Shown one piece after another: positions 47,310 to 63,864 of a stretch of DNA of 64,000 nucleotides. The stretch's first letter is position 1, and every line of letters starts with the position of its first letter. The position numbers were made by a program, and so were the translations under genes. The notes under the pieces were generated by a model. That model was not told the origin of the DNA, did no database searches, and worked only from the letters and a program-made list of their open reading frames with translations. Origin of the DNA: an uncultured Ectothiorhodospiraceae bacterium (GTDB lineage: Bacteria > Pseudomonadota > Gammaproteobacteria > Nitrococcales > Nitrococcaceae); assembly GCA_913055565.1 (NCBI GenBank), contig CAJXKP010000007.1:1-64000 (forward strand). Reading direction: 5' to 3'.

Positions 47310-49064
47310 CTAGCGCATCAGCACATAACTGCCCGGTGCGGGCTCCAACACCGGCAGATCCTGGTTGGGCGCGCCCATGGAAGGCGGTTCTACCGCGGTG
47401 CCGCTACGCTCGCGCAACCAATTCTCCCAAGCAGGCCACCATGACCCCTGGGCCTGCTCGGCCTTCGCCAAGAACTGATCTGGCGGCAGGTAAGAATCCA
47501 GGGGCTCGTGGTAGATCGTACGGTAGCTACGGCGCGGATGGCCGGGCGGCGTCACGATGCCTGCGTTATGGCCCCCCGAGGTCAGCAGGAAGGTAACCGG
47601 CGTCCTCGCCAGTCGCACCAGCTTGTAGACGGAGCGCCATGGCGCGATGTGATCCTTCTCCGTGCCGACGACGAACATGGGGGCCTTGATGTCGCCGAGA
47701 TGAATAGGCTGACCAGCGACGTCGTAGCGCCCCTCGACGAAATCGTTATGCATGAACAGATCACGCAGGTACTCGGAGTGCATGCGGTAAGGCAGCCGCG
47801 TGGCGTCGGCATTCCACGCCATGAGATCGATGGTGTTCTCGCGCTCACCCATGAGGTAGTGCTGGACCATGCGTGACCAGATCAGATCCTCGGAGCGCAG
47901 GAGTTGGAAGGCCCCGGCCATATGCCCCTGCCCGAGATAGCCGCGGGCCCACATGACGTCCTCCAGGAACGCGACCTGGGATTCATCGATGAATAGCTCC
48001 AGCTCGCCGGGTTCGGTGAAATCCGCCTGCGCCGCCAATAGTGACATGGAGGCGATGCGGTCATCGCCATCGCGCGCCATCGTAGCGCCGGCGAGCATCA
48101 GGAGGGTGCCGCCCAGGCAGTAGCCCACGGTATGGATACCGCGCTCGGGACAGATCTGCTCAACCGCGTCCAGCGCCGCCATGACGCCTTGCCGCCGGTA
48201 GTCATCCAGGCCCAGATCGCGATCATCGCTCGTAGGGTTGCGCCAGGAGACCATGAAAACGGTATAGCCCTGGCCTACCAGGTATTCCACCAGGGACTTC
48301 CCGCGCCGCAGGTCTAGGATGTAGTACTTCATGATCCAGGCCGGCGTGATCAACACCGGCTCGGGATGAACGGTCTCCGTCGTGGGCTCGTACTGAATTA
48401 GCTCGATGAGCCGATTGCGATAGACCACCTGACCGGGTGTTAGCGCCATATCGCGGCCAACCTGGAAGGCCTCGGTGCCGGCTGGCGGATCACCCGCGAG
48501 CTTGCGCTGCTGATCCTCGAGGAGATTCTCCGCACCGCGGACCAGGTTATAGCCCGCTTCGTTGAGCGTCCGCGCCTGGATGACCGGATTGGTGAGCAGG
48601 AAATTGGAGGGCGAAACCACGTCCAGGCATTGACGTGTAAGAAAGCCCACAACCGCCTCATGGTGCGGGTCGACACCGCGGACACCCGTGGTCGCGTTGT
48701 GCCACCACTGCTGTGTCAGCAGGAAGCTTTGATACAGCGGCGCCCAGGGGATTTGCTGCCAGCGCTCGTCATGGAACCGGTCATCGCCGGCGAGCGGCTC
48801 GATACAGGGCTCGACCGCCTCGCTGGCCGCCATACAGCGTAGGTTATACAGCGCCAGGCGCTGCCATTTACGCCAGCCCTTGTAGGTCAACTCGGCTTGC
48901 TTACCGGGATGTAGAGCCAAGTTCAGCCACCAATCCGTGGCGGCTAAGGCGATGGCGGCCGGCGAGAGCCCTTGGGTGATCTCGCCAAGGCCGGCGTGCA
49001 ACAACCGATCGAGGGGATTGGCGGGAACGGTCTCGGCCTCGGAGACGGTGCGCGTATGAGCCAT
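47310..49064 (-). CDS. phaC: Poly(3-hydroxyalkanoate) synthase PhaC
   Basis: The 584-residue alpha/beta-hydrolase-fold enzyme has the PhaC N-terminal domain and the lipase-like box GYCLGG with nucleophile Cys316, a catalytic Asp in GTEKDHIAPW and His in TSGGHNAGIV. It polymerises hydroxyacyl-CoA into storage granules. The length and domain layout match class I synthases. No phaA/phaB/phasin gene is adjacent. It lies downstream of the pilus operon on the same strand with a 150-base gap, so it probably has its own promoter. Confidence 0.95.
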   Translation of the reverse strand: MAHTRTVSEAETVPANPLDRLLHAGLGEITQGLSPAAIALAATDWWLNLALHPGKQAELTYKGWRKWQRLALYNLRCMAASEAVEPCIEPLAGDDRFHDERWQQIPWAPLYQSFLLTQQWWHNATTGVRGVDPHHEAVVGFLTRQCLDVVSPSNFLLTNPVIQARTLNEAGYNLVRGAENLLEDQQRKLAGDPPAGTEAFQVGRDMALTPGQVVYRNRLIELIQYEPTTETVHPEPVLITPAWIMKYYILDLRRGKSLVEYLVGQGYTVFMVSWRNPTSDDRDLGLDDYRRQGVMAALDAVEQICPERGIHTVGYCLGGTLLMLAGATMARDGDDRIASMSLLAAQADFTEPGELELFIDESQVAFLEDVMWARGYLGQGHMAGAFQLLRSEDLIWSRMVQHYLMGERENTIDLMAWNADATRLPYRMHSEYLRDLFMHNDFVEGRYDVAGQPIHLGDIKAPMFVVGTEKDHIAPWRSVYKLVRLARTPVTFLLTSGGHNAGIVTPPGHPRRSYRTIYHEPLDSYLPPDQFLAKAEQAQGSWWPAWENWLRERSGTAVEPPSMGAPNQDLPVLEPAPGSYVLMR

Positions 49065-49214: not shown

Positions 49215-49883
49215 TTAACGCCGCATGACATAATAGGCTGTCAACGTCGCGACCTGGGCCTCGTCGCCCTGGGCACCGTTCATCGCATCCGTATCGTCGA
49301 GCCCCCACTGCTGCGCGCTACCAGTATTATGACGGCCTTCGCGACGAAAGCGACCGAAGCGGGCGTCTACGCGCCCGTCGATCCGCGAATCCAGATGCCG
49401 CGCCAGTGACGGCGTGAGCTGGCTAAACTCGAGCACGTTGCGCGGCCGCTCGACGAAGTTGCCGGTACTGGCGCCCGGCACGGCCCAATCGGCGACGGGG
49501 CGCATACATACCTGAATGGCCTGCGGGTTGCCGTTGCTATCCTCGTAGACGTAGCGATCGTTCTCGCCTACCGCGCGCCCTTGTGGGAGCTCAACACCCG
49601 CTGCGAGGAACTCGTCGAGCATGCCGTTATTACAGCTCGGGGCGTCGATGAGGCCATCATCATCCGTGCTCCCCGGGACGCCTCCGGTCCTTTGAAGATA
49701 GCTGTCATAGGCCATCTGCCAACCGCGAACATACTGACCGCTTATCGTGCTGTAGGTGGCGGTGCGGTAGAGGCCGGCGCCAACAGACATCGCGGCTAGC
49801 AAGAGACCGATGACGGCAATAACCACCGTCACCTCCAGCAGGCTGAATCCGACCTGGCGACGGCTCGACGTCGCTAGAGACAT
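49215..49883 (-). CDS. Prepilin, paralogue of the first pilin of the cluster
   Basis: The 222-residue protein has the prepilin peptidase site VG|FSLLE (cleavage after Gly12, Glu at +5) and one N-terminal helix. Its body aligns with the 269-residue pilin at 62775-63584: shared AYDSY, DRYVYED-NGNP, PDLAR/PSLARHLD and a closing AYYVMRR-like strand. Start ATG 49883 follows AGGGAG; the upstream 15 codons overlap the neighbouring gene. Last gene of the pilus operon. It may be a minor or alternative pilin. Confidence 0.85.
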   Translation of the reverse strand: MSLATSSRRQVGFSLLEVTVVIAVIGLLLAAMSVGAGLYRTATYSTISGQYVRGWQMAYDSYLQRTGGVPGSTDDDGLIDAPSCNNGMLDEFLAAGVELPQGRAVGENDRYVYEDSNGNPQAIQVCMRPVADWAVPGASTGNFVERPRNVLEFSQLTPSLARHLDSRIDGRVDARFGRFRREGRHNTGSAQQWGLDDTDAMNGAQGDEAQVATLTAYYVMRR

Positions 49884-49924
49884 GACACATCTCCCTTGTT
49901 GCTCGGCTGCCGTACGCTCGCCGC

Positions 49925-51061
49925 TCAAAAGCCCTGGCTCTCCGCCTGCTCCGCCCGGTCTGTCACAATCTCGTTCAGTGGCTCGGCTCGATTATCGAGC
50001 AACCGCTCAATGGCGTCCCGCTGTCTCTCGGCCTGCTCAAGGTAATTGTCGGCCTCATCGAGAGCCGCGCCCGCGGGGCCGAACGCCGAGGCGATCACAC
50101 CAACCCCGGCGATCGCGAGCCGCTGCGCGGACGACTCGCCGAGGTCGATACCCCGGCCGAAGCTCTCACTCATGCCGCCGGCGGCCTGTGCCGTAATCCC
50201 CCCCACAAGTGCCATGTTCGCCTCGGCGGTGCGGAGTTGCCCCTCGGCGACCTGCACCTGCGCCTCGGCCACGGCGAGGTAGTCCCGTAGGGCGCGTTGC
50301 ATGAGCTCGGCGCTGACAGCGGTATTAAATCGGCCATGGCCGAGGCTAGCGAGCGCCTCACCGCAGGCCACGCGGCCCGCCAACGCCGAGAAGCCCGCCG
50401 CTGCAACGCGATCATCATTATCGTGAGCACCGAGGCCTGGCCAATCGAGCTCCGCGTCGCCGTCATCCTGGCGCCCGTCGAAGCGGCCACCGCCATCCGC
50501 ATCCCCGGCGCCCGGCGCCGCCAGGGCGTAGGCAACATTCCGCGTTCGGCTATCGGCGACCAGTTGCAGACCATCGCTCGCCGTTGGCCGCGACCGTTGA
50601 CTGAGGGCACCGAGCGCACGACAAGTATCGAGCAGGTTGGCCGTGCCATCATTGAGCCGCGTCCGCACCGGCTCGTCGTTATCATTGAGTCGGATGACCT
50701 CAAGCCGATCCGCGGCCGTCGTGAGATCGGGGCCGCTTCGATAGACGCCATAGCGCAGATCCCCGGCGCGCGCATCCGCCAGGCCGAGCTCCTGCCAGGG
50801 AACAAAGCCCATTTGACCGGCACTGCAATCGGCCGCGCCATCACCATCCGAGGCCGGACAGGGCAGATGATGATTGGCCTGGACGAAGGCCACCAGGGAT
50901 TGCTCGGCGCGGCGCATCAACCGCTCCTGCTCAGTCCGCCTCTGGCTGCCGTTGATAGCGGCGAGATAGGCAACGACCGCAATAGCGAGCACGCCGAGCA
51001 GCGCCAGACTCAGGGCCATCTCGAGGAATGAGAAACCACGGCTGTGTTGCGGCGACGTCAT
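49925..51061 (-). CDS. Large minor prepilin, Cys-Pro/DGDG family, with C-terminal helical extension
   Basis: The 378-residue protein has RG|FSFLE (cleavage after Gly9, Glu +5). The family core (65-240) has HLPCPASDGDGAADC, PWQELGL, VAYALAAPGAGDADG and DDRVAAAG. After about residue 250 comes a helical region (YLAVAEAQVQVAEGQLRTAE), a hydrophobic Ala/Gly segment at 314-334 and an acidic tail. Asp-rich loops look like Ca2+ sites. It overlaps the preceding prepilin gene by four bases. Confidence 0.82.
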   Translation of the reverse strand: MTSPQHSRGFSFLEMALSLALLGVLAIAVVAYLAAINGSQRRTEQERLMRRAEQSLVAFVQANHHLPCPASDGDGAADCSAGQMGFVPWQELGLADARAGDLRYGVYRSGPDLTTAADRLEVIRLNDNDEPVRTRLNDGTANLLDTCRALGALSQRSRPTASDGLQLVADSRTRNVAYALAAPGAGDADGGGRFDGRQDDGDAELDWPGLGAHDNDDRVAAAGFSALAGRVACGEALASLGHGRFNTAVSAELMQRALRDYLAVAEAQVQVAEGQLRTAEANMALVGGITAQAAGGMSESFGRGIDLGESSAQRLAIAGVGVIASAFGPAGAALDEADNYLEQAERQRDAIERLLDNRAEPLNEIVTDRAEQAESQGF

Positions 51062-52155
51062 GGCAGCACCCCCTCCTCGTCCTTGGTGTCGGCGTCATCG
51101 TGCCGTTGGGTGCTTGAATAACCGCTCAGCCCGTCCAGTGCCCGGCCCTGGCTGACCCGTGTTTGCGCTGCCCCGATATCCTTGGTGGCCATCTGCAGGC
51201 GCGACGCGGTTTCCCCCAGCACCGCGAAGCGCAGAAAGTTGTTATAGGCAGTGGCGCGAATTTCTCCGGCTGTAGCGGGGGCGTCGTCGGTGCGCTCCGA
51301 GAACCCCTGCACTGTTTGGGCCGTGAATACGGCGAGCAGTGCCCCCGTAACCAGGACATCGACGCCGGTGATGGCGCGTTGGGTGATCGTCTTCTGGCGG
51401 TTCGTCTGCCTGACCCGCACGGCGCGCTCGCGGAAATCCTGGTACAGCGAGCTAAAGGCGCCGAGCTCAGTGCTCTGGGCCGCCTGATGGCCGCCGAGGT
51501 TGCTCCGGGCCAGCCGCGCCGGGCAGTCCAACCGCGTCGCCAATGCCGCCGGGCTGGCCGACTGGACGCGATCGTCGCCGTCGGCACCGGCCTCACCGGG
51601 CAGGGCGAAGCCATTCGCGTTGCGATGCGGCCCTTCGAAACGGCCATTAGCCCCGGGGGCAGCAATGGCGAAGGCCACCTCGGCGCCCGGCCCTTGACTG
51701 CCAACACGCACACCCCCGCCCGAGTTGCTGGCGATGGCATTACGCAGCGCCGCACAGTAGTCGAGCGTATTCTGTCGCTGCTGACCACTGCCAGTAGGCT
51801 GATGGGCCTCGGCGGGCGCCCGCGTCGTCAGGGCGGCGGCCGGCTCGTACCGGATATCGGTCGCGGGCTTGTCAACGCCGAGCGTCTGCCACGGCAAGGC
51901 CTCACCCGTCGCGCCACAATCCTCGCGGCCGTCGCCGTTGGCATCGGCGCAGGGCAGGCGATGCTCGGCCACAGCGTAGCCCTCCAGAGCCCGCCGTGCC
52001 ACCGAGAGCTTGCCGGCGGCGGGCGCGTCGGCGCCGCGGCCGGCCTCGATCGCCCTGGGCACGATCTGCCAGACGGCCAGCGACACCAGCCCGGCAATCG
52101 CTAGGGCGATGCTCATCTCCATCATCGAGAAACCGTCGATACGTCGATTCATCAT
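51058..52155 (-). CDS. Large minor prepilin, Cys-Pro/DGDG family, with second hydrophobic segment
   Basis: The 365-residue protein has DG|FSMME (cleavage after Gly8, Glu +5), RLPCADANGDGREDC at 66-80, LPWQTLGV at 87-94, VAFAIAAPGA and DDRV. Residues 261-280 (GVDVLVTGALLAVFTAQ) form a second, transmembrane-like hydrophobic stretch inside a C-terminal helical region, flanked by basic residues. The C-terminus is acidic. Overlaps both neighbours by four bases. Confidence 0.82.
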   Translation of the reverse strand: MMNRRIDGFSMMEMSIALAIAGLVSLAVWQIVPRAIEAGRGADAPAAGKLSVARRALEGYAVAEHRLPCADANGDGREDCGATGEALPWQTLGVDKPATDIRYEPAAALTTRAPAEAHQPTGSGQQRQNTLDYCAALRNAIASNSGGGVRVGSQGPGAEVAFAIAAPGANGRFEGPHRNANGFALPGEAGADGDDRVQSASPAALATRLDCPARLARSNLGGHQAAQSTELGAFSSLYQDFRERAVRVRQTNRQKTITQRAITGVDVLVTGALLAVFTAQTVQGFSERTDDAPATAGEIRATAYNNFLRFAVLGETASRLQMATKDIGAAQTRVSQGRALDGLSGYSSTQRHDDADTKDEEGVLP

Positions 52156-53450
52156 TGCGGTTGACTCCCTTGTATCGCGCCGGCCTGGTCGGCCGCGTCC
52201 AGCAATGCCTCACGCCGATTCCACGGCGTATTCGCCTGCAACTGATCCTCCGCGGCCCGGTAATCGGCCAGCGCGAGGCCATGCAGCGCTGCGGACGCCG
52301 ACAGCCCCCCTATCGAGACAGCGTGCGAAATGGCTGCGGCGCCGTACGCCGGGAGCGCCGGACAGGCGAAGGGATCCCACGGCGGCGGCAGCGGCGGGCA
52401 TTCCCTAGCCGCTCGCACCGCTGCCATGCCGTCCTCCACTGCCATCGCTGCTGACACAGCGGGGGCCAGCCCGACAAGGCTGAGACGCTGCGAAGAGATG
52501 CGAACTCCCCGCTCCGCCGACGTAGTGACCCAGTCATGCTGGGCGTTGACCTCCTCGACCACGGCGATGGTCAGCGAGACGGCCTCTAATGAACGCATCA
52601 GGGGCCCACAACCCAGCCGCCGGGCGAGGCCGCTGTGCCCCTGGGCGACGACGCGGTCGTCGTAGCCCGGCTGGGCGCCACGGTCCAGCTCGGCCATACG
52701 GGCATTCGATGCGGCGTTGGGGCCATCGAACAGATCGCCGTCGCCGTCGCTATCCCGGCCACCGGGGTGGGCCAGGGCAAAGGCCACCTCGCGACTATCG
52801 GTGCCTGCCAACTGCGGCCCGCCGTCGCCAGCCGTACGAGCCAGAGAACGGCATAGGTCGGCGGCCGAGGTGATATCGCCGTCCCGGAACTCGGCTTTGG
52901 GCGTGCCCAACCGCTCGACGCATTCACGAGCGGTGAGAGGGAGCCCGCTGTTGTCGAGCTCGTCATGGTTACGATAGCGCGCAAGGCCCTCAGCGGTCCG
53001 CAAACACTCACTCGTGCCCGGCTTGCCGTAATTGAAATCGTCGGCGTCCACCCGCGTTAACGTGACATCGGTGCCGGCATCGTCGACCATATAGGCGAGT
53101 TCCTGGGTGAGTCCGCTCGCTGCCGGATCGGGAACGCCCAGGGTCTGCCACGGCAGCGCCCCCTTCTCGTTGGGCGCAACGCAATCGCCATTATTCCGGT
53201 TCTCCAGGCCGTCGCCGTCGGTATCGGGGCACGGCAGCCGGTGATTCATCATCGCGAAACTCTCCAGCGCGCGCTCGCCCTCGGTGAGGCTGCGCTTCTG
53301 CTCACGCAGGCGCTCACGCTGGGAATCGACCTGGAGCCAGGCTAGGCCCGCTGCTAGAGCGCTGCCCACCAGCAGCGTCACCAGCAATGCCTCAATAAGG
53401 CCGCCCCCTCGCTGGCGGCAACGCGTTCCCTGGTATCGCCGGTATCGCAT
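52152..53450 (-). CDS. Largest minor prepilin, Cys-Pro/DGDG family, GspK-like size
   Basis: The 432-residue protein has the atypical cleavage site RG|GGLIE (Gly15, Glu20 at +5). It has RLPCPDTDGDGLEN (71-84), PWQTLGV, VAFALAHPGGRDSDGDGD (222-239) and DDRVVAQG. A C-terminal extension (from about 285) contains a hydrophobic Ala/Gly/Ser-rich region around 370-392. Multiple cysteines may form disulfides. Size is like pseudopilin GspK but sequence homology to GspK is not evident. Start abuts the end of the platform gene. Confidence 0.8.
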   Translation of the reverse strand: MRYRRYQGTRCRQRGGGLIEALLVTLLVGSALAAGLAWLQVDSQRERLREQKRSLTEGERALESFAMMNHRLPCPDTDGDGLENRNNGDCVAPNEKGALPWQTLGVPDPAASGLTQELAYMVDDAGTDVTLTRVDADDFNYGKPGTSECLRTAEGLARYRNHDELDNSGLPLTARECVERLGTPKAEFRDGDITSAADLCRSLARTAGDGGPQLAGTDSREVAFALAHPGGRDSDGDGDLFDGPNAASNARMAELDRGAQPGYDDRVVAQGHSGLARRLGCGPLMRSLEAVSLTIAVVEEVNAQHDWVTTSAERGVRISSQRLSLVGLAPAVSAAMAVEDGMAAVRAARECPPLPPPWDPFACPALPAYGAAAISHAVSIGGLSASAALHGLALADYRAAEDQLQANTPWNRREALLDAADQAGAIQGSQPQ

Positions 53451-54721
53451 CAGACACCTCCGGCCTGCATGGCCATCGTTTGCCGAATAAGGTCGTAGAT
53501 AGGCAGGAGCAGCGCCACCACCATGAACACCAACAACCCGCCGGCTAGGATGACGATCACGGGTTTAATGATCTCCGACAGCGAGGCGATGATGGTGTCC
53601 AGGCGGCTGCGGTACTCCCGCGCCAGATAGTTCAATTGCTCATCGAGGGATCCGCTTTCCTCGCCGACGCTGACCATGCGCACCACCATCGGCGGGAAAC
53701 CGCCGGCCAGGCGCATGGCGCCACCGATGGGCTCACCGCGCTGGACGGCATCGTTGAGCCGCTCCAGCCGGCGCTCGTAATAGAGATCCCGCGTCGTGCG
53801 CTGGAGGACGCTGAGGCTGGTCACCACATCCAGGCCCGAGCGAACAAGGATCGCGAGATGCTCCGTCATGGTCGCCATCCCCGATGCCGTGACGATGCGC
53901 TTGGTCACCGGTAGATAGTGGAGGAGGGTGTGGACGCCACGACGCGTCGGCTCATGGCGGCGATAGAGCATGACCATGGCGACGACGGCGCCCGCCAGGC
54001 CGGCCAGGACGATGAGGAAGTGATCGGCGAACATCGCTGAGAAAGAGACGAGCCAACGAGTTATGGCCGGCAGATCGGCGTTGAGGCGATCGAAGAGATC
54101 CCCGAGCTTAGGCACGACGTAGGTAATCCAGAAGCCCATGACCGCGAACAGCGTCGAGAAAACGAAGGCCGGATAGATCAGCGCGGTCCGTATGTTGCGG
54201 CGAATATTGATCACCCGTTCCATATGATCGGCGGCCTCCATGAGCATGCGGTCGACACTGCCGGAGCGATCACCGATCGCGATGAGATTGCGAACGGTCT
54301 CGGAGAAGATATCGGGCCGACGTGCGAACGCCTCACTAATGGGCACGCCAGCATCCATATCGTCGTAAAGCTGCTGCGCGATTTGAGCGATACCGTGTGC
54401 CCCGCTGCCGCGGCGCTCGTTAATGATCGTGCGTAACGCCTCCAGGGTCGGTACGCCAGCGGTTTGCATGACGCCGAGGTCACGCAAAAACGAGGTGCAA
54501 TCATCCGCTTTCACGTTGCGGGCGAACAGCCCGGCGACCCCCTTGTAGAGGCCAGTGACCGGCGCAGGGAGTCGCCACAGGCTGACGACGGTACCGCCGA
54601 ACTCGCCTTCCAGACGGAGTCGTGCCGACGTATCGTGCGCCACGCCGAGCTGATAGAAGCCGGTGCGCATCTTGCCGTGTGGCTCAAGGATGCGGTAGTA
54701 GTAAGTCCGTACCTCGCTCAT
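53450..54721 (-). CDS. mshG: Pilus assembly platform protein, GspF/PilC/MshG family
   Basis: The 423-residue inner-membrane protein has two GspF domains, near 70-190 and 290-410, each with an FLRDLGVMQTAGVPTLEAL-type or ILVRSGLDVVTSLSVL motif, and three membrane spans. It couples the ATPase to pilin extraction. The neighbouring ATPase and secretin suggest the MSHA branch. It overlaps the ATPase gene by four bases. Confidence 0.92.
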   Translation of the reverse strand: MSEVRTYYYRILEPHGKMRTGFYQLGVAHDTSARLRLEGEFGGTVVSLWRLPAPVTGLYKGVAGLFARNVKADDCTSFLRDLGVMQTAGVPTLEALRTIINERRGSGAHGIAQIAQQLYDDMDAGVPISEAFARRPDIFSETVRNLIAIGDRSGSVDRMLMEAADHMERVINIRRNIRTALIYPAFVFSTLFAVMGFWITYVVPKLGDLFDRLNADLPAITRWLVSFSAMFADHFLIVLAGLAGAVVAMVMLYRRHEPTRRGVHTLLHYLPVTKRIVTASGMATMTEHLAILVRSGLDVVTSLSVLQRTTRDLYYERRLERLNDAVQRGEPIGGAMRLAGGFPPMVVRMVSVGEESGSLDEQLNYLAREYRSRLDTIIASLSEIIKPVIVILAGGLLVFMVVALLLPIYDLIRQTMAMQAGGV

Positions 54722-56424
54722 GTCGCACCCTCCCCGATAGCGCGCTCGATCTCGTCGGTGGTCGTCTCCCCTTCGAGCACCCGCTGGCGTCCCGATTCGA
54801 GAATGGTGCGCATGCCGGTGGCCTCACAGGCGGCACGTAGGTCACCGCGGGGGGCATCCGAGGCGATCAGATCGGCGATGGTGCGATCCGGCAACAGCAT
54901 CTCGTAGACCGGCACGCGACCCAGATAGCCAGTCCCCCGGCAACGCTGGCACCCCGCGCCACGCATGACGGTGGCGCCTTCCGCGATGCCGAGCCAGCTA
55001 CGCGCCGCCTCACTCGGCGTGGTCGCGGTCTTGCACATCGGGCAGTTCCGCCGGGCGAGACGCTGGTTGATAACGCCCATGAGATTCTCGGCGATGGTCT
55101 CGACGTCGATACCGAGGATCTTGAGTCGCGGCACCACGCCGAAGATGCTGCCGACATGCAGGGTGGAGAGCACAAGATGGCCCGTCGAGGCGGCCTCGAG
55201 GCCCGCATGCGCGGTCTCCTGATCGCGGATCTCCCCCACAAGGATGATGTCCGGATCGTGGCGCAGGAAGTGGCGTAGGGCGTTGGAGAAACCATAACCA
55301 GCCCGGCCGTTGACCTCCGTCTGGCCCACCGCCGGCACCCGGTATTCGACCGGGTCCTCGACGGTCAGGACATTGCGCTCGACGATGTGTTGCATGCGCA
55401 AGGCGGCGTGGAGGGTCGTGCTCTTGCCCGAGCCGGTCGGCCCCGTGAGCAGTATGAGCCCCTGGGGGCTTGCGAAGAGCTTCTTTAATGCCGCGATATC
55501 TTCGTCGAGCACCCCGAGATCGCTGAGCTTATCCAGATCTCCCTGCTGACCCAGTAAGCGGAGCACCATTCGCTCGCCGTACTCGGCGATGACCGTGGAA
55601 ACACGGATCGTATAGGGCTGATCCAGGATCGTTCGGCTAAAGCTGCCGTCTTGCGGTAGACGCTGCTCGGCGACATCCATCTCGGAGCACAACTTGATAT
55701 AGCCCGTGAGCCGATCGCCCGCCGACGACATGGCGAGCATCGGGCGTAACACCCCGTCGACGCGAAAGAGGATATGCCGGCTGCCGGGACTCGCCGTGAT
55801 ATGGATATCCGAGGCGCGCTCACGCACCGCGTAATGGAGGATGTACTCCAGCAACGTATCCGGGCTGTAGACGCGATCGACGTCGCGATCGAGCTGGCGC
55901 AGCTCACGCTGAATGATCTCGTCGGGGGGATGCTCGGCGAAGAAGAAATGCTGGCGGATAGCCTGATTAACGCGCGCAAACTCACCCTGCTGGAAGCGCA
56001 CTTGCCAACCGGTGCGCCGCCACACGAGCTCGCTCACCTCGCCGGGGTCAGCGTCTCCGATAAGGACCGTCACCACAGTCTGATTGGTCGAGCCGACGAC
56101 GGTGTCAAGCGGGAGAAATCCCCGCGCCAGACAGAGTGCCTGGTTGAACAGGCGAGTGGCCTCGGGCGTAGGCTCCGACGCCCAGTCCTTATCCAAGAAT
56201 TCGATACCATGCCCGTACTGATCCGCGAGGATGCGGGCAACTTCCTTCTCCGTCACCAGTCCCAGGGAGACGAGCATGTTGCCGAGGCGACCGCCCTCGA
56301 CGGCTTGTTTCTGCAAAACAAGATCCAGCTCCGTGTCGTTCAACAATCCCCGTTCGAGGACCATCTGTCCCATCCGCCGTACGGCCGCGTTATCGCCGCC
56401 ACTCGATTCAGCCAATGTCGCCAT
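54718..56424 (-). CDS. mshE: Pilus assembly/extension ATPase with MshEN-like N-domain
   Basis: The 568-residue GspE/PilB-family ATPase has tandem MshEN-like motifs at 17-46 and 47-77 (RLGNMLVSLGLVTEKEV is the second), which in Vibrio MshE bind c-di-GMP. The catalytic part has Walker A GPTGSGKSTT with Lys334, an Asp box, VGEIRDQETA, and a zinc-type tetracysteine: Cys461, Cys464, Cys492, Cys495. No separate retraction ATPase is present in the window. Confidence 0.93.
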   Translation of the reverse strand: MATLAESSGGDNAAVRRMGQMVLERGLLNDTELDLVLQKQAVEGGRLGNMLVSLGLVTEKEVARILADQYGHGIEFLDKDWASEPTPEATRLFNQALCLARGFLPLDTVVGSTNQTVVTVLIGDADPGEVSELVWRRTGWQVRFQQGEFARVNQAIRQHFFFAEHPPDEIIQRELRQLDRDVDRVYSPDTLLEYILHYAVRERASDIHITASPGSRHILFRVDGVLRPMLAMSSAGDRLTGYIKLCSEMDVAEQRLPQDGSFSRTILDQPYTIRVSTVIAEYGERMVLRLLGQQGDLDKLSDLGVLDEDIAALKKLFASPQGLILLTGPTGSGKSTTLHAALRMQHIVERNVLTVEDPVEYRVPAVGQTEVNGRAGYGFSNALRHFLRHDPDIILVGEIRDQETAHAGLEAASTGHLVLSTLHVGSIFGVVPRLKILGIDVETIAENLMGVINQRLARRNCPMCKTATTPSEAARSWLGIAEGATVMRGAGCQRCRGTGYLGRVPVYEMLLPDRTIADLIASDAPRGDLRAACEATGMRTILESGRQRVLEGETTTDEIERAIGEGAT

Positions 56425-56472
56425 AGCCCGGCCCCCTGGATTGATCCCGATCCGGCACTCGATTGGTCACGC

Positions 56473-57066
56473 TCATCGCCGTAAGCGTTGTCGTGCGCCC
56501 GCCAGAGCGTCCGATGCCGGATTGTGCTCAAGGGCCTGTTCCAAGACCTCGCGCGCGGCGTCGCGCCGATCCGCACGCTGATGCAGATACGCAAGATTCA
56601 GTGCCGCGTTCTCATCCCCCGGCCGCGTCGCCAGGACCTGCTGGAATTGGCGTTTGGCCCGTTGATCTCGGCCGCGCTTGAGTTGATACCAACCCACCAG
56701 CCGCGTATGGAGGCTACGACGCCCCGGTAGCTGATCATCGATATGTGCCAGAGCGAGCTCGGCACGCTCCCACTGCTCGGCGGCCACCGCGCGCAGAACA
56801 CGGCGATGCAACCGGCGCAATTCGGCCACGCCACCCCCGGCATCATCGGATTGCCCTCGGGGCGATGCCGTAGCGCTAGCATCGGGGCCGCCGGTCGCCG
56901 CGTTCTCTCCGGAACCACTGGTTTCGGCCGCCCACACAGGGGTGGGTGTCGCCACAACAACAACTAACCCGGTCACCATCCATCGACGAAACCGCCGTCC
57001 GACCCCGCGTTGCGCATCCCGGCGACGCTTGTCGATGGGTAGACCAACACTGCGAACCTGTCTCAT
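56473..57066 (-). CDS. TPR-repeat protein, MshN-like
   Basis: The 197-residue protein has a basic N-terminus, one membrane helix or signal anchor (about 29-46, VTGLVVVVATPTPVWA), a Gly/Ser/Ala linker and at least two TPR-like units ending in QRADRRDAAREVLEQALEHN. In msh clusters a TPR protein (MshN) sits between the secretin and ATPase genes, as here. It overlaps the secretin gene by four bases. Confidence 0.75.
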   Translation of the reverse strand: MRQVRSVGLPIDKRRRDAQRGVGRRFRRWMVTGLVVVVATPTPVWAAETSGSGENAATGGPDASATASPRGQSDDAGGGVAELRRLHRRVLRAVAAEQWERAELALAHIDDQLPGRRSLHTRLVGWYQLKRGRDQRAKRQFQQVLATRPGDENAALNLAYLHQRADRRDAAREVLEQALEHNPASDALAGARQRLRR

Positions 57067-58805
57067 TGAACTTTCACCCTTAGAGCGATAACCAGCTCGC
57101 GTGTCTCTGTCAGACGCTGGCGTTCGCCGAAGACGCCGCCAATAACCGGAAGCGATGACAAACCAGGCAGGCCCTGGTCGCGCTGGTCGGTACTGCGATC
57201 AATTAGGCCCCCGATGAGCACCAAGTCGCCATCGTTGAGGGCCAATGTCGTGGTGAGCCCCTTTGACTGGACACGTGGCAACGAGATCCGGTTAGCGCCG
57301 CCCACATTGACCAGATCCAGGGTGCCGTCGACGACGCTGGTTTGGAGAGGACGGACCAATAATTCGACCCGCCCGTTGCCTCGTATATAGGGCACAACCC
57401 CGACGGTGATGCCATCGAAGACGCTATCCGTGTCGACGTCCACGGTGACCGTCGACTGGCCACCGCCGGCATTCTGCTCACTGGATTCGGACTGACTGAC
57501 GAACCGCGAGGTCGTCCCGACGCTCAGCTGCGCGGGCGAGCCGTTACGAGCGAGGAGATTCGGATTCGACAGAACGGTGGCGTCGCCGAAGCGCTCGAGT
57601 GCCTCGACCACGGCCCCGAAATCACTCTCCTGGAAGGCAACGCCCAGCGAGCTACCGTCCCCGGCGTCAATGCTACGCCCCGGGATGGTCAACGTCCGCG
57701 ACGGCAGATCCGCGCCGCCGGAGGGAACATTGGTATTAATATCACCGAGTTGAGGCACCTCGCCGGTCAAGGTCGCGGCGAAGTTATCGCGCAGCAGCGT
57801 CCAATCGATACCGAAACGGAATTCGTCGGTAAGGGTCACATCGATGATCTGGGCCTCGATCGCAACCTGACGATTAACGGTCTCGCGCAGTTGGGCCATG
57901 TAGCGGTTAACCGCTTCGATCTTGCTAGGACGCGCCTCGACATAGAGCGTACCGGAATTGCGATCCAGCGAGACCGCACTCGCCACCTCTTTACTCTCCG
58001 GCTCAGACGCTCGCCCGCTGTTGGCGCCCCCGCCCGAACCGCCACCGGAACCGCTCGCACTACCACCGCTTGCGCCGCGGGATGGACCGCCTCCCCGTTG
58101 GCCGGGGGGGTCGACCCGAATGGTCTCTTTATCCGCGATGATGCGGGCAACGGTTTCACGCACGACCGAATAAGGGCGATCCGAGGCCCCGGATGTCGTC
58201 TCCAAGGTTTGGCTGCTACTGAGCTCCTCGGCGGTCGAGCCAAAGACATTGCCGCCATCGGAGGTGCTGAGCTCGTCCGCGGTATTCAGGAACTCAAGGG
58301 CGTAAACGCGCTCTTCTTTGAGTGTAATGCGCAGCGTGTTGCCTCGACGCTCGCCATGGACATCGTAGATCGCGAGGATATTCTCAAGCGCCTCACGCAC
58401 GCTGACCTCGGTCATGGACAGGGTGGCGCGTTGCGTCAAATCGTTGACGCTCGGATCCACGATGAGATTGACCGACGAGCTCTCCGTCAGCGCACGGGCC
58501 GCCTCGGTGATGCGCGCCCGCACCAGCTCGATGGTCACCACTTGCGCCGACAGCGGATCGAACTGAGGCTCTTGGGGCCGCAATCCGGGTAGCGATCGCC
58601 GCTGTTCGACCTGCTCGCGCATTCGCCGCGAGGCATTGGACAGCCGCTCGGACGCCTCGCCGGAACGCAATGGAATCTCGCCTTCCGGATTCGCCTCGGC
58701 TTGGCTCAACGCCGGTTCGCCTCCGGGCGGCAGATTCGCGCACCCGCTCGCGATAAGGGCGGACAGGGTAACCGCTAGACGCCAAGCGGTTTTTCTGTAA
58801 TTCAA
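57063..58805 (-). CDS. mshL: Secretin, MshL-like lipoprotein
   Basis: The 580-residue protein has a lipobox SGCANL (Cys22), a secretin N/STN domain (RATLSMTEVSVREALENIL near 130), an N1-type domain after a Gly/Ser-rich insert (about 236-270) and a C-terminal secretin beta-domain with VLSNPNLLARNG and LTTTLALNDGDLVLIGGLI. It would form the outer-membrane pore. Closest match by layout is MshL/PilQ-type rather than GspD. First gene after a 73-base gap. Confidence 0.9.
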   Translation of the reverse strand: MNYRKTAWRLAVTLSALIASGCANLPPGGEPALSQAEANPEGEIPLRSGEASERLSNASRRMREQVEQRRSLPGLRPQEPQFDPLSAQVVTIELVRARITEAARALTESSSVNLIVDPSVNDLTQRATLSMTEVSVREALENILAIYDVHGERRGNTLRITLKEERVYALEFLNTADELSTSDGGNVFGSTAEELSSSQTLETTSGASDRPYSVVRETVARIIADKETIRVDPPGQRGGGPSRGASGGSASGSGGGSGGGANSGRASEPESKEVASAVSLDRNSGTLYVEARPSKIEAVNRYMAQLRETVNRQVAIEAQIIDVTLTDEFRFGIDWTLLRDNFAATLTGEVPQLGDINTNVPSGGADLPSRTLTIPGRSIDAGDGSSLGVAFQESDFGAVVEALERFGDATVLSNPNLLARNGSPAQLSVGTTSRFVSQSESSEQNAGGGQSTVTVDVDTDSVFDGITVGVVPYIRGNGRVELLVRPLQTSVVDGTLDLVNVGGANRISLPRVQSKGLTTTLALNDGDLVLIGGLIDRSTDQRDQGLPGLSSLPVIGGVFGERQRLTETRELVIALRVKVQ

Positions 58806-58878
58806 GATCCTATCTCCTGCTAATGATTACCGACCGACCGCTCGACCCGCTTTCACAGGCCGCACGACGTCGGATGAA

Positions 58879-59613
58879 CTACGGACGCTGGAGCCAACCG
58901 ATAAGGGCAAAAGGCGATTCCGCTATAACGACATCATCGTTCGACTGGCTCGCACCCAGCGACGGCGCCCGGGCGCAGATGCCCGGATGGGGCCCATCGA
59001 GGCGGTCTCCGTCGCCATCACGATCGACGAGCGGGACGACCACGAAAAACGCCACGGGGCGACTATTGCTGCGGCAGCCCTGACCCCCGGCCCGACCGCC
59101 GACCGCTGCGGTGGCCGGGCCGCTGCCGTCGACGCCCCGCAAGGCACGAATCAGATCATTGCCATCGGGCCGATTGCCGCCGCCCGGACGCGAATTGGCA
59201 ACCGCCACGAGGTCACTGCTAGCCGCGCCGCGATAAACGGCATATAGGGCGCGCTTATCGGGGCCGGGTACACTCAGGCCGAGGCTGCGATAGGGGACCC
59301 AGCCGGTGGCGGCGCTATTAGCTCGGCAATTGCCAGCGCGCCCAACGGCGGCGTTGCCGCGTTGGATGCTGGCGTTGCCGGAGCGCGGCTCAGGGCAAGG
59401 CAGCTCGCCGTTGCTCAAGGCGTAAGCCCGCAACGCATCACGCACCTGCTCACCATGCGACTCAGCGGCCTGCCGGTCGGCTACTCGATCGGTATTCAAG
59501 TAGGCGCCACTCGTGGCGGCGAGCACGAGCCCCACCACGCCGAGCACGACCGCGATCTCGACGAACGAGAAGCCGGATTGCCTTGTTGCCCTGCGCGGCT
59601 TGGCTCGAATCAT
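58879..59613 (-). CDS. Minor prepilin of the Cys-Pro/DGDG family, short form
   Basis: The 244-residue protein has SG|FSFVE (cleavage after Gly14, Glu19 at +5), ELPCPEPRSGN (70-80), WVPYRSLGL, VAFFVVVPLVDRDGDGD and NDDVVIAESP, so it is the short member of the family at 49925-53450 without the helical extension. Start ATG 59613; the 17 upstream codons are non-homologous. It overlaps the preceding gene by four bases. Confidence 0.83.
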   Translation of the reverse strand: MIRAKPRRATRQSGFSFVEIAVVLGVVGLVLAATSGAYLNTDRVADRQAAESHGEQVRDALRAYALSNGELPCPEPRSGNASIQRGNAAVGRAGNCRANSAATGWVPYRSLGLSVPGPDKRALYAVYRGAASSDLVAVANSRPGGGNRPDGNDLIRALRGVDGSGPATAAVGGRAGGQGCRSNSRPVAFFVVVPLVDRDGDGDRLDGPHPGICARAPSLGASQSNDDVVIAESPFALIGWLQRP

Positions 59614-60341
59614 CGGCCGGCCTCCTGGGCCGTACCAGCCTGGCTGGCGTCGCGCAGATGCCAAGACGGACTTATCTTCACGGTTTCGCGGTCAGCATCT
59701 GGGGTCAACCGCCCCTCGGGGATGTCGACGGCCTCGAAAGCGGGATCGGTCATCATGTCCGTAACGAGCTTATTGGACAGCCGCATAGCACGATCGCGGT
59801 CTTGCGTATTCTCGGCTGCATTCAGTTCTCGCATCTTCTCGCCGAAATCCTTCATTCGAGCCGCCACCGCGAGTTGCCGCTCCAGCTCGTCGATATCGAG
59901 TTCCTCAGCCACCTGCCCAGGTGCCTCGCGCTGCAACTCACGCAGCAAATCAACCACCTTTTCCGGCTCGGCCGCGTCGTTAGCCACGAGCTCTGCAAGC
60001 TCATCAGCGATCCGGTTGGCGGTGGCGCGGGCCTCCGCGTCGCTCGGCGAGGCCTCGCCGTTCGCGAGCTTGGATGATTCCTCCTCGTTAGCGTCCTGCT
60101 CGAACAGCGCCGGCGCCGTGCGCTGCGTGACCGAACCACCGGACTCATCCGAGGTCGCGTTGTCGGCCTTGCTCTCCGTCTCCACGGCAACCGGCTGCCC
60201 AGTCCGATCACTGGGTAGGTCCCCCGGTCGAGACGGCTCCGATTGCAGCGCCGGGACGACCATGAATTGCACCCAGACCATGACCAACGCCACGATCGCG
60301 CCACCCAACGCTACTCCCTGCAGTACCTGTCGGTTCATCAT
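59610..60341 (-). CDS. Uncharacterised single-span pilus-cluster protein
   Basis: The 243-residue protein has one N-terminal membrane helix (about 9-30) and a long acidic, helix-rich periplasmic region with AELVANDAAEPEKVVDLL-type heptads. No known family is recognised. It sits between MshK-like and prepilin genes and overlaps the latter by four bases, so it is likely part of the machine, perhaps a periplasmic linker or adaptor. Confidence 0.75.
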   Translation of the reverse strand: MMNRQVLQGVALGGAIVALVMVWVQFMVVPALQSEPSRPGDLPSDRTGQPVAVETESKADNATSDESGGSVTQRTAPALFEQDANEEESSKLANGEASPSDAEARATANRIADELAELVANDAAEPEKVVDLLRELQREAPGQVAEELDIDELERQLAVAARMKDFGEKMRELNAAENTQDRDRAMRLSNKLVTDMMTDPAFEAVDIPEGRLTPDADRETVKISPSWHLRDASQAGTAQEAGR

Positions 60342-60378
60342 CCCTCCGGATTAACCATTCGATAGGTCAGCCAAACCG

Positions 60379-60891
60379 CTAGCGGGCAACCAGCCGCTGA
60401 CGGCGCCCGCCCCGCTCGGCAATCACGACGCTATCGGTATCGATGCGCAGCACTTCCGCCTCCCCCGGGAGACGATCGCCTTCCTGCACGACCCGACCGT
60501 CGACAACCGCGGTCGGTCGGGGGCCATCGAGCACCACACTGAGCTGGCGGCGCGGTAATGGCGCCGGTGGTTGTTCATCGGCCTGGTCGCGATCGACATC
60601 GGCCAGTAGGTCCGGACGCGGCACCAGTACATCAGGCGGCTCCTGAGCCGTCGCTAGCAGACCCGTCGCGTCCGCGCCGGGCGCGGACTCCATGAATAAT
60701 GCGAACCGATCGAGCTCGGTGGCCAGCTCATCCAAGCGCGCCTGCTCCTGCGGCGGAATCGGCTGGGTTGCGGGAACGCGCACAGTCGCGCTCGGAACCA
60801 TCGGATCCGCGCTCACCCTCGACAGAAGGAATGCCCCCAGACCCAGCGCCACCAGCGCTAGCCCATTCACTGCCACAAAGACGTACTTCAT
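60379..60891 (-). CDS. MshK/GspB-like periplasmic linker protein
   Basis: The 170-residue protein has an N-terminal membrane helix (VFVAVNGLALVALGLGAFLL), a proline-rich stretch and a C-terminal HR-type domain (RRQLSVVLDGPRPTAVVDGR then VQEGDRLPGEAEVLRI) shared by GspC, PilP and MshK. It is expected to bridge the inner-membrane complex to the secretin. Overlaps the GspL-like gene by four bases. Confidence 0.78.
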   Translation of the reverse strand: MKYVFVAVNGLALVALGLGAFLLSRVSADPMVPSATVRVPATQPIPPQEQARLDELATELDRFALFMESAPGADATGLLATAQEPPDVLVPRPDLLADVDRDQADEQPPAPLPRRQLSVVLDGPRPTAVVDGRVVQEGDRLPGEAEVLRIDTDSVVIAERGGRRQRLVAR

Positions 60892-62201
60892 GCACGCTCC
60901 CCGACTCGTGTGAGCTCGTAGGAAAAGCTCCCGGGCGCGTTGGCGGCGGGCTCAAGTGGCTGGATTCGCCAACCTTGGGCCCTGAGGTTCTTGAGAAACT
61001 GGCGCATGGCGTCGCGCCCACCGGCCAGATTCTGCCCATCGACGATGACGTAGTAGCCGTCCTCGTCCGAGCCTTGCCCGCCATCCTCGCCCGGCTCATT
61101 ATTGCCACCGTCCAGAAGAACCCGGTGTATACGAAGACCCTCCGAGCGGGCGGCCTCGACGTCACCCAGCAGCCGCGCTGGTGCAAACGGAGCGCGATCC
61201 ACCATCGGGCCGACGAATTCATCGGCCGCGCGCAATGCCTTACGCTGCGCCCGGAGCTCGGTTTTCTGAAACTGGCTCCGCAGTTGACGTAACTGCTGCA
61301 ACTGACCCTGTGCTTGGGCCCGCTCCTCGCTCGCCGCTTGACGCCAATACTCACCCATACCGGCGAACACCAGGGCTAAGGCGGAAACAGCTACAGCAGC
61401 GGCAACAGCCAACGTCTCCTGCCACCAGGCCAGCTTATCAACAGGCTTGTTGATCGCCTCACGCGTTGCGAGCTGATGAACGCAGACCGGCAAGGCCGTC
61501 AGCACCTGCCCTTCCAGCCCCTGATAGGACGCTAGCGGCGCGCAAGAGACCGCCACACCCGCGCGCTGCGCCATCCGTTGTGCAATCCAGTCCTCATCTT
61601 CGGCGCTTGCACTGTCTAGCGCGATCCATTCCACAGCCGGCGCTTCGTCCGCACCCAGCTGCCTCGCTAAATCACCACCGAGTGTCTCGGCGGCGACCGC
61701 AATATCATCAAGGTCAGCGGAGGCGGCCACGGCATCCTGGGTAAACAACCCCTCGCTGGTGCGGGCAAGGAACCGCAGCTGGCAGCCCGAGCGCACCACG
61801 CGGCACTGCCCTTCCTTGATGTCGGCCAACAGCGCGCCAAGCGGATAGACAAGGCAATGATCGCGCTGCCGGGACGCCCAATCGTGGAACTGCTGCCAGG
61901 CATCCAGGCGAACCGCCGTATAGAACGCAATGCCACCGCCGTGGACCCGATCCAGGTGGTGGAGAACGACGTGACTCACCCCCTCAAGCCAGCCCTCCTG
62001 GCGTACCTGGCGCTCGATAAAGGCGGCGGCGTACTGGGCCTGACCCTCAAAACGCATCACGCCGATGTAGGCATTATCGAACGCGACCATGAGCCGCGTC
62101 GGCGCTTTTAGATTCGGGAAAGGGTCGATCCGACGCGAACGCCCATCGGCGCCGTACCAGTGCCAGCCCTCGGAGGTAACCACAATCACATCGGGGTTCA
62201 C
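60888..62201 (-). CDS. GspL/MshI-like inner-membrane assembly protein (PilM-PilN type fusion)
   Basis: The 437-residue protein has a cytoplasmic actin-like (PilM/GspL) region (1-260), a transmembrane helix (about 268-288) and a periplasmic coiled coil plus ferredoxin-like end. This is the bitopic arrangement of GspL or MshI, whereas type IVa pili split it into PilM and PilN. MshI is the best name, not certain. It overlaps the PilN/O-like gene at its start. Confidence 0.78.
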   Translation of the reverse strand: MNPDVIVVTSEGWHWYGADGRSRRIDPFPNLKAPTRLMVAFDNAYIGVMRFEGQAQYAAAFIERQVRQEGWLEGVSHVVLHHLDRVHGGGIAFYTAVRLDAWQQFHDWASRQRDHCLVYPLGALLADIKEGQCRVVRSGCQLRFLARTSEGLFTQDAVAASADLDDIAVAAETLGGDLARQLGADEAPAVEWIALDSASAEDEDWIAQRMAQRAGVAVSCAPLASYQGLEGQVLTALPVCVHQLATREAINKPVDKLAWWQETLAVAAAVAVSALALVFAGMGEYWRQAASEERAQAQGQLQQLRQLRSQFQKTELRAQRKALRAADEFVGPMVDRAPFAPARLLGDVEAARSEGLRIHRVLLDGGNNEPGEDGGQGSDEDGYYVIVDGQNLAGGRDAMRQFLKNLRAQGWRIQPLEPAANAPGSFSYELTRVGERA

Positions 62202-62755
62202 GACTCACCCCCTACCCACAGATACATCGTGCCCACAAGTTGAAACCCGATCTTTGCTTGATCGTAAGGGGGGTTCTGAAAGAGCCCGAGCTCCGATTCA
62301 GGAACGCTTACCTCAAAAGATCGTGGTAAAAAGAACGAGCTTTTGCCGCCGCTCGCTACCGATCGCAAGATCTCATGGACCTTTCTCCGCGGGACCATCT
62401 GCTGCTCGTATTCCAGGCGCCGCGTCTGCCATTGATCCGCATTCAGTCCGAGCTGATCTTTGCGCGCCAAGACCTTTTCTAGCTTTTCGCCAAATTCCGA
62501 TCGCGCCCGCGAGCGCCGAATCTGCTTTTCGAAGCTCGCCACTTTGCGCTGGGCATCTGTTTTAAAATAACGGGCGGTAGCAAGCGCACTCGCGCCGTAA
62601 TAGGCATAGCCGATACTCGCCACCAGCATCACGACACAGCCGATACTTAGACCCATTATTCCGGAGCGCTTCATCGGAATCATCCGCTCGATCAGAGAAC
62701 GTGTCGCATCGACGCGCTCAGACGACGATCGCTGGCGGTAGGGGCTTACAGGCAC
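62198..62755 (-). CDS. PilN/PilO/MshJ-like inner-membrane protein
   Basis: The 185-residue protein has a cytoplasmic basic N-terminus, one membrane helix (about 34-55), a coiled coil (AQRKVASFEKQIRRSRAR) and a small C-terminal beta-rich domain. This is the PilN/PilO/MshJ layout. GTG start at 62755. Partner of the GspL/MshI-like protein encoded next. No firm family assignment from sequence alone. Confidence 0.72.
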   Translation of the reverse strand: MPVSPYRQRSSSERVDATRSLIERMIPMKRSGIMGLSIGCVVMLVASIGYAYYGASALATARYFKTDAQRKVASFEKQIRRSRARSEFGEKLEKVLARKDQLGLNADQWQTRRLEYEQQMVPRRKVHEILRSVASGGKSSFFLPRSFEVSVPESELGLFQNPPYDQAKIGFQLVGTMYLWVGGES

Positions 62756-62774
62756 CCTACCGCCTTGCTGAGCA

Positions 62775-63584
62775 CTAGCGCGCCATCTTGTAATGGGCCG
62801 TCACCAGCGTGACCTGTTGCTCATCGGCGGCCGTGTTGTTCGCCGCCTGCGTATTGGCGCTACGCTGACCGCGACTCTGGGTCGCATCACCACGCCACAC
62901 GTTGCCCGTGTTGCCTTGCCCGGTTTGGCCGCCACTGCCCTGGTTGCCCAATTGGCCTGCCGCCTGGCGGAACCGGCCCTGCTCCGGGTCGGCCTGGCCA
63001 TCGACACCCTGATCCAAGTAACGGGCAAGATCCGGTGTGATCCCAGCGATCACCATGACATTGCCGGAGCCCGAGGCCGTCCCCGGCGGATTCCACTGGA
63101 AACAGACCTGCATCTCGACGGGATTGCCGTTGGTGTCTTGATAGATATAACGGTCCTCCAGCCCCTCGCCGCGACCCGGCGGCAGCGTGATGCCCTGTTG
63201 GATCATCTCGCTGCGCAGTCCGGTGTTAGGGTTATTGGCGTTCAGGCGATGAGCGCTTTGCGTCGCGGCGCAATAGGGAGCAACGCTGGCCTGGCTCATA
63301 TCCCCGCCCGTCGTGCCGCCGAAGTTACGCCCGTTAACGATCATCTGGGGAGCCGTTGGATCATCGCCGATCGGCACTCCCGTTTTATTGAAATAACTGT
63401 CGTAGGCCAGTTTCCACTGGTCAAGGAACTTCTGGCGAATCTTGACGTACTCACCTTGGCGCAGTACGTCTTGGCCTATCATTACGGCGCCTAAAATCAG
63501 GCCAATAACGGCCAGGACGACCGCCATTTCGACGAGAGTAAAGCCGCCATGACGTTGCCGAAGTGTTCGATTTGCGCGCTCCAT
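62775..63584 (-). CDS. Prepilin, probable major pilin of the cluster
   Basis: The 269-residue protein has GG|FTLVE (cleavage after Gly14, Glu19 at +5), a classic N-terminal helix (MAVVLAVIGLILGAVMIG), then AYDSYFNKTGVPIG, ITPDLARYLDQGVDGQADP and a Gly/Asn/Gln-rich C-terminal region. First gene of the operon with a strong RBS (AGGAG at ATG 63584). Paralogue of the 222-residue prepilin at the far end. Rich in Gln/Asn, so possibly surface-exposed. Confidence 0.86.
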   Translation of the reverse strand: MERANRTLRQRHGGFTLVEMAVVLAVIGLILGAVMIGQDVLRQGEYVKIRQKFLDQWKLAYDSYFNKTGVPIGDDPTAPQMIVNGRNFGGTTGGDMSQASVAPYCAATQSAHRLNANNPNTGLRSEMIQQGITLPPGRGEGLEDRYIYQDTNGNPVEMQVCFQWNPPGTASGSGNVMVIAGITPDLARYLDQGVDGQADPEQGRFRQAAGQLGNQGSGGQTGQGNTGNVWRGDATQSRGQRSANTQAANNTAADEQQVTLVTAHYKMAR

Positions 63585-63636: not shown

Positions 63637-63864
63637 AATCCATAAATGTTTTCCGTAACGCCCATGGCCTGTCACTTGGCCCGAAAAAAGGACGACCGTC
63701 AACAGGCATTAGCGGCCGTGCTAGGGCCACTAATACCCGTTATTGCAGTGCAAAACATCTACGACTCTTGCCACAGAACGATCTCAGCGGTTCAGAGGGT
63801 TCTTTCATCGCTGCGGATGAATTGTTCTGCAGCGCAACAAGCGCAGGTCAGGGGCTACCCGTAA

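Follow-up and report, generated by a model that had tools for sequence, protein, structure and literature searches.

A 64-kb stretch (hereafter the window) that begins contig C7 (99 kb) of the 2.7-Mb draft genome of an uncultured Ectothiorhodospiraceae bacterium (G000) contains 14 co-directional genes encoding a machine of the type IV filament superfamily, whose branches include type IVa and type IVb pili, type II secretion systems (T2SS), MSH pili, Tad pili, Com systems, and the archaeal filaments. Judged from its sequences, this machine represents a lineage, here named W-type, that is related to, yet distinct from, the mannose-sensitive hemagglutinin (MSHA) pilus of Vibrio and relatives. We consider it probable (roughly 0.6) that the block is a complete single-locus operon of this distinct lineage and that it produces a contact or attachment pilus gated by cyclic di-GMP (c-di-GMP), with the four minor prepilins h, n, o, and p at its tip. 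At the sequence level, this reading is supported by an MSH-like core, six class III prepilins, a gene order conserved within and beyond the class of the host, and separate clades for the assembly ATPase and the secretin. Literature searches found no description of the W-type lineage, which is a conserved and apparently undescribed member of the superfamily.

The genes occupy positions 49215–63584 on the minus strand, with A first (start 63584) and q last (end 49215), and eight of the 13 junctions are four-base overlaps, one is a one-base overlap, and four are gaps of 19–73 bases, in agreement with the original prediction of contiguous, mostly four-base-overlapping genes. They encode a secretin, a tetratricopeptide repeat (TPR) protein, an assembly ATPase, a platform protein, three inner-membrane assembly proteins (I, J, and K), an additional membrane protein (B), and six prepilins, and thereby contain the AAA+ assembly ATPase, platform, class III prepilins, and diderm secretin expected of the superfamily. 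The assembly core had been called complete: the ATPase, platform, secretin, and TPR protein were all recognized by profile in the expected msh-like I/J/K-L-N-E-G arrangement, but MshM, present in most relatives, is missing, with homologues found only on contigs C55 and C20. The count of six prepilins also stood, as weak or better matches to N_methyl or the equivalent NCBIfam model were obtained for five and the sixth (n432) was recognized by its prepilin motif by eye together with a weak match to the GspH N-terminus.

Because the whole ordered set is kept in about 40 other genomes, chance can be excluded as the source of this arrangement. The set A A' J I K B h L N M E G n o p q recurs with minor permutations, its content is nearly fixed at 16–17 genes, and the order was the same wherever the available DNA reached far enough, apart from small changes: in some Acidovorax h follows G, and in Pseudoalteromonas A is on the other side. 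A scan of a genome collection with an A-pilin alignment gave 41 clear loci, with carriers that include Arhodomonas, Halomonas, Acidovorax, Hydrogenophaga, Polaromonas, Rhodoferax, Comamonas, Methylobacter, and Pseudoalteromonas peptidolytica, many of them Comamonadaceae. Arhodomonas aquaeolei (G003) has the entire operon, and its E and G proteins are 68.6% and 60.8% identical to those of the window. Prepilins with the LPCP motif described below were found in all 29 genomes searched, usually four at the locus. The related blocks with the same prepilin set that the original prediction had suggested looking for were therefore found, and together with the separate clades described next they support its proposal of a distinct system not yet described. 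In a survey by phylum, 9 of the 398 genomes had full-length A relatives. Four of the nine lie outside the class of the window; these four loci, from four families, were read and have the same parts. Within the class the distribution is patchy, since only 4 of 369 genomes carry the system, and among 22 searched relatives of the window's family a close secretin was found in Arhodomonas only. The ATPase of Halomonas sp. CUBES01 (L063/L106) is 86% identical to Arhodomonas E despite the distance between the hosts, which suggests a recent horizontal exchange between the two lineages. An origin from a mobile element or plasmid was rejected for the window copy, as no plasmid record has an ATPase of at least 60% identity and the G+C content of the operon (0.643) is close to that of the rest of the window (0.650).

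The comparison set of MshL-family loci from the window's class falls into two groups, the classical loci and a second MSH-like type. In an IQ-TREE phylogeny built from 52 ATPase sequences, those of the W-type, of the classical loci, and of the second type each occupy one side of a branch with support of 100/100, 100/99, and 100/100, respectively, and the secretin tree agrees (SH-aLRT 100). Both trees were built without V. cholerae, for which MshQ-linked loci served as a stand-in; they are rooted for drawing only, and the outgroup branches are long. The window secretin scores 271 bits with the MshL model TIGR02519, above the cut-off of 250.2, and the ATPase scores 46.8 with NF053729, a model of the MshE-related c-di-GMP domain with a cut-off of 38. 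The ATPase has tandem 24-residue MshEN motifs, RMGQMVLERGLLNDTELDLVLQKQ and RLGNMLVSLGLVTEKEVARILADQ, separated by five residues, with RMG in place of RLG in the first. Such a motif pair with a five-residue spacer has been described for V. cholerae MshE (PMC5013675), and because of this match control of the window ATPase by c-di-GMP is likely on sequence grounds. Among the other proteins of the operon (Table 1), no Pfam match was obtained for J and B, nor for I up to 0.1, and the C-terminus of K has only sub-threshold matches to T2SSB (6.7e-4) and T2SSC (2.8e-3) in Pfam.

Table 1. Genes of the W-type operon in the window, in order of transcription.
Gene	Product	Coordinates	Strand	Basis
A	Candidate major pilin, 269 aa	62775..63584	-	ATG start, AGGAGC upstream; N_methyl 27.2 bits; q paralogue
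J	PilO/MshJ-like inner-membrane protein, 185 aa	62198..62755	-	Position, single N-terminal transmembrane segment; almost every locus has an orthologue
I	GspL/MshI-like (PilM-PilN type) assembly protein, 437 aa	60888..62201	-	Position and build; place kept in complete loci
K	MshK/GspB-GspC-like protein, 170 aa	60379..60891	-	Conserved position; weak C-terminal profile matches
B	Lineage membrane protein, 243 aa, one N-terminal transmembrane segment	59610..60341	-	Most relatives have an orthologue in this place
h	LPCP-type minor prepilin without extension	58879..59613	-	GspG N-terminus 8.9e-7
L	MshL-type secretin, 580 aa, lipoprotein-like N-terminus	57063..58805	-	PF00263 108 bits; TIGR02519; tree
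N	MshN-like TPR protein, 197 aa	56473..57066	-	TPR_19 34.8 bits; lies between L and E
E	MshE-type assembly ATPase, 568 aa	54718..56424	-	PF00437 340 bits; tandem c-di-GMP motifs; tree
G	Platform protein, 423 aa	53450..54721	-	PF00482 166.9 bits
n	LPCP-type minor prepilin with extension, 432 aa	52152..53450	-	Homologous to o and p; two DxDGDG motifs
o	LPCP-type minor prepilin, 365 aa, ~140-aa extension	51058..52155	-	IV_pilin_GFxxxE 20.7 bits
p	LPCP-type minor prepilin, 378 aa, ~135-aa hairpin extension	49925..51061	-	AlphaFold2 hairpin; extension homologous to that of o
q	A-family prepilin ending the operon, up to 237 aa (Q237)	49215..49928	-	N_methyl 23.4 bits; A paralogue

The prepilin set is unusual, as had been supposed. 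Best matches to the ordinary MshB/C/D/O/P/Q proteins were looked for, and in searches against Pfam and NCBIfam no named pilin family was found above its cut-off beyond the N-terminal methylation motif. The two prepilins at the ends of the operon are paralogues, as predicted (A296 versus Q237, E 6e-40), where A296 is a possible longer frame of A starting at 63665 and the longest frame of q starts with TTG. In most relatives q is likewise the last gene. Relatives have the A family in two or three tandem copies, versus a single A in front in the window. A-family pilins measure about 235–330 aa, compared with 171 residues in the solved MshA (9lab), and profile searches against PDB sequences showed similarity to known pilins, 9lab included, in the N-terminal part only. 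The AlphaFold2 (AF2) model of A has a long N-terminal helix (residues 17–68) and a beta domain with low-confidence insertions, for which a Foldseek search against the PDB gave nothing at E<=0.001.

The other prepilins, h, n, o, and p, form a second family with the core motifs LPCP...DGDG...C...LPW/Y..LG, most pairs being related at 1e-21 to 1e-4. A Cys-Pro/Asp-Gly family of four had been anticipated and exists, but the long extensions attributed to all of it are conserved C-terminal additions in three members (n432, o365, and p378), and h261 stops at the core domain; its orthologues in relatives measure about 235–284 aa. Prepilin n reaches 650–1000 aa in most relatives, with an extension of about 500 aa versus about 140–160 aa in the window and in G680, and several relatives have Gln in place of Glu at position 5. 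The o and p extensions are nearly constant in length (134–135 aa beyond the analysis cut) and homologous along their whole length (hhalign 98.1%, E 8e-14), and that of n is related only weakly. Among 25 relatives, no Pfam domain besides N_methyl recurred in the extensions. The AF2 model of p378, computed from an alignment of 22 rows of mostly core-domain relatives from which the region-derived n, o, and p relatives were left out, contains a pilin helix (12–63), a beta domain, and helices at 245–302 (58 residues) and 309–375 (67 residues), and thus predicts a helical hairpin with about 60 residues per arm.

Segments of 19 residues with a mean hydropathy of at least 1.6 were present in 28 of 28 o, 26 of 27 p, and 23 of 26 n sequences, versus 1 of 62 for A, q, and h together, and in the o and p alignments the turn region is hydrophobic, with a charged fraction of 0.02–0.07 in most blocks and about 0.2–0.3 in the flanks. 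A serious competitor, at somewhat short of even odds, accepts the same machine and tip but takes the hairpins as purely structural, that is, an alanine-rich helical bundle, or as a non-specific hydrophobic adhesin that never inserts into a membrane. Because the o and p extensions are rich in Ala and Gly (about one third of their residues), their hydropathy is inflated, charge-free runs exceed those of shuffled sequences in just 12 of 28 o and 12 of 27 p extensions, and the window copies bear charges near the turn, all in line with a structural role; a soluble bundle would not need the hydrophobic part around the predicted turn of o and p, and the n extensions, 22 of 26 of which have charge-free runs beyond shuffles, fit such a role poorly. 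Membrane insertion of a hairpin is possible in itself. That three hydrophobic hairpins at the tip of a c-di-GMP-gated pilus become inserted in the membrane of a cell that the pilus touches, as a contact-dependent device, we regard as quite unlikely.

A T2SS-like machine, in which a short pseudopilus exports substrates and n, o, p, and h act like GspK/I/J/H, is an unlikely but arguable alternative. Four minor prepilins are reminiscent of GspHIJK, K weakly resembles GspB/GspC, h scores weakly to GspG, the secretin and ATPase belong to the same superfamilies, and the large n with its Gln5 in several relatives recalls GspK, which lacks Glu5. Yet the T2SS equivalog cut-offs are far from reached (GspE 382.5 versus 630.25, GspF 235.6 versus 424, and GspD 133.8 versus 351.35 bits), the two or three tandem large A pilins and the MshL-type secretin fit a pilus better, and separate T2SS/T4P-type ATPases are encoded elsewhere in the same genome. 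Nor was any cargo, effector, or substrate gene found conserved next to the W-type loci, where only regulators recur. By sequence reading, these were a membrane histidine kinase and response regulator pair upstream of A at six loci (L066, L070, L082, L089, L093, and L094) and a BTAD-like regulator of about 1150 aa near eight (L064, L073, L079, L091, L096, L097, L102, and L108). A type IVa pilus is likewise not indicated, with 353 bits to the PilB model versus a cut-off of 675.65 and PilT-like genes on other contigs only.

An ordinary, merely diverged MSHA locus would explain the single locus, the I/J/K-L-(M)-N-E-G order, the TPR protein MshN, the MshL-family secretin, and the MshE ATPase with its c-di-GMP domain. 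We rejected this very improbable reading on the trees and on the missing MshQ and pilin matches. The MSHA model treats mshE, mshG, mshL, and mshM as mandatory and places PilD outside MSH loci (PMC6668835). The window has the first three, a trio common to all three lineages, and lacks mshM; it shares the MshEN motifs and the absence of a prepilin peptidase, but its ATPase falls outside the MSH clade (with MshQ-linked loci standing in for V. cholerae), and for an MshA-type major pilin nothing in the window rose above cut-off beyond the N-terminal motif, 9lab matching N-terminal residues only. As TIGR02519 exceeds its cut-off in 139 of 369 genomes, it cannot alone decide MSHA membership. In classical loci small pilins come after K L M N E G, and DUF6701 (MshQ) lies about 11–19 kb from the secretin in G163, G073, G385, and G200, whereas W-type loci add protein B, the large A pilins, and LPCP minor prepilins with hairpins, have no recognized MshA/B/C/D/O/P-type pilins, and never had MshQ nearby in those tested; MshQ is absent from most W-type genomes altogether. 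In one genome (G200) the two kinds coexist, with the W-type locus on C7 and the classical MSHA locus on C9. The second MSH-like lineage (L178, L181, and L183–L186), found in several families of the class, has LPCP-core prepilins, weakly A-like pilins, and a related core, but runs M-L-N-E-G with PilN/PilO/K-like genes and the LPCP prepilins after G, has its own ATPase clade, and showed no helical hairpin extension in the members read.

Competence pili share a type IV filament and secretin core, but a DNA-uptake function is hardly credible, as no ComEA/ComEC-type gene was recognized in or next to the loci read and no minor pilin matched a DNA-binding one. A parallel in principle is the Tad/Kil predation pilus of Myxococcus, whose KilLMN (TadEFG) minor pilins form a heterotrimeric tip with added domains (PMC12075869). 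The pilins and core of the two systems are not recognizably related, and the W-type ATPase is of the MshE/PilB type rather than TadA.

The W-type machine as a c-di-GMP-gated pilus might operate as follows. The prepilins would be cut by the general peptidase of the genome, I, J, K, and B would link ATPase E to secretin L, and binding of c-di-GMP at the tandem MshEN motifs would switch assembly on. E would then drive assembly on platform G, with exit through L helped by N. The shaft would consist of A, joined by A' in relatives, and h, n, o, and p would make up the complex that primes assembly and sits at the tip. Since n is the largest and has Gln instead of Glu5 in several relatives, reminiscent of GspK, it would be the tip-most subunit. 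At the tip, the helices added to n, o, and p would protrude and contact a surface or membrane, and for retraction the machine would borrow PilT proteins whose genes lie on other contigs. Most likely, the machine serves as a contact or attachment fiber used at high c-di-GMP.

Several points weigh against this reading. Most Comamonadaceae members lack the Arg of the first c-di-GMP motif, and c-di-GMP control is therefore less likely in them than in the window. Confidence in the p378 hairpin is moderate (block means of about 55–76 for the predicted local distance difference test), the o and p hairpins of the window are less hydrophobic than others, with a longest charge-free run of 20 in both that does not exceed shuffles, and a Foldseek search of the p378 model against the PDB gave nothing at E<=0.001; for this reason weak fold matches to the helical hairpins of a colicin, HlyD, and a tripartite pore former were not used as evidence. 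The tip position of h, n, o, and p is probable by analogy, the product may be a long fiber or a short pseudopilus, and literature searches found no experiment on any W-type member.

The window copy is a reduced form, without mshM, without a second A next to A, and with most of the n extension gone; its N, too, has 197 aa versus about 260–400 aa in relatives. Both M and N are missing from the Halomonas and UBA2675 loci and can therefore be lost. The only prepilin peptidase (PilD) found in the window genome is encoded on contig C5, where an assembly ATPase gene lies about 2 kb away. On C7, two different PhaC-type polyhydroxyalkanoate synthase genes flank the operon (window 47310–49064 and, by sequence reading, G000:C7:72034-73836). 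A further MSH-type locus (K-L-M-E-G, L168) is present on an 11.4-kb contig of the same genome (G000:C55) and a DUF6701 match on C45, so that the draft genome may hold up to three MSH-like machines. One entire contig of 9,293 bases, which carries a classical-looking msh locus, is byte-identical between the window genome (G000:C58:1-9293, L031) and that of another genus (G016:C15:1-9293, L032), and one of the two bins therefore probably contains a foreign contig.

A survey of type IV filaments left 884 systems as "generic" (PMC6668835). The W-type lineage is a well-delimited branch that, because it is present in common culturable genera such as Acidovorax, Hydrogenophaga, and Polaromonas, can be approached experimentally. 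Through its three minor pilins with extensions, it provides a direct test of the extent to which the tip of a pilus can be customized, and of whether pili are capable of acting on membranes. If the tip does insert into membranes, it would be a membrane-engaging contact device made of pilins and not of a secreted translocon.

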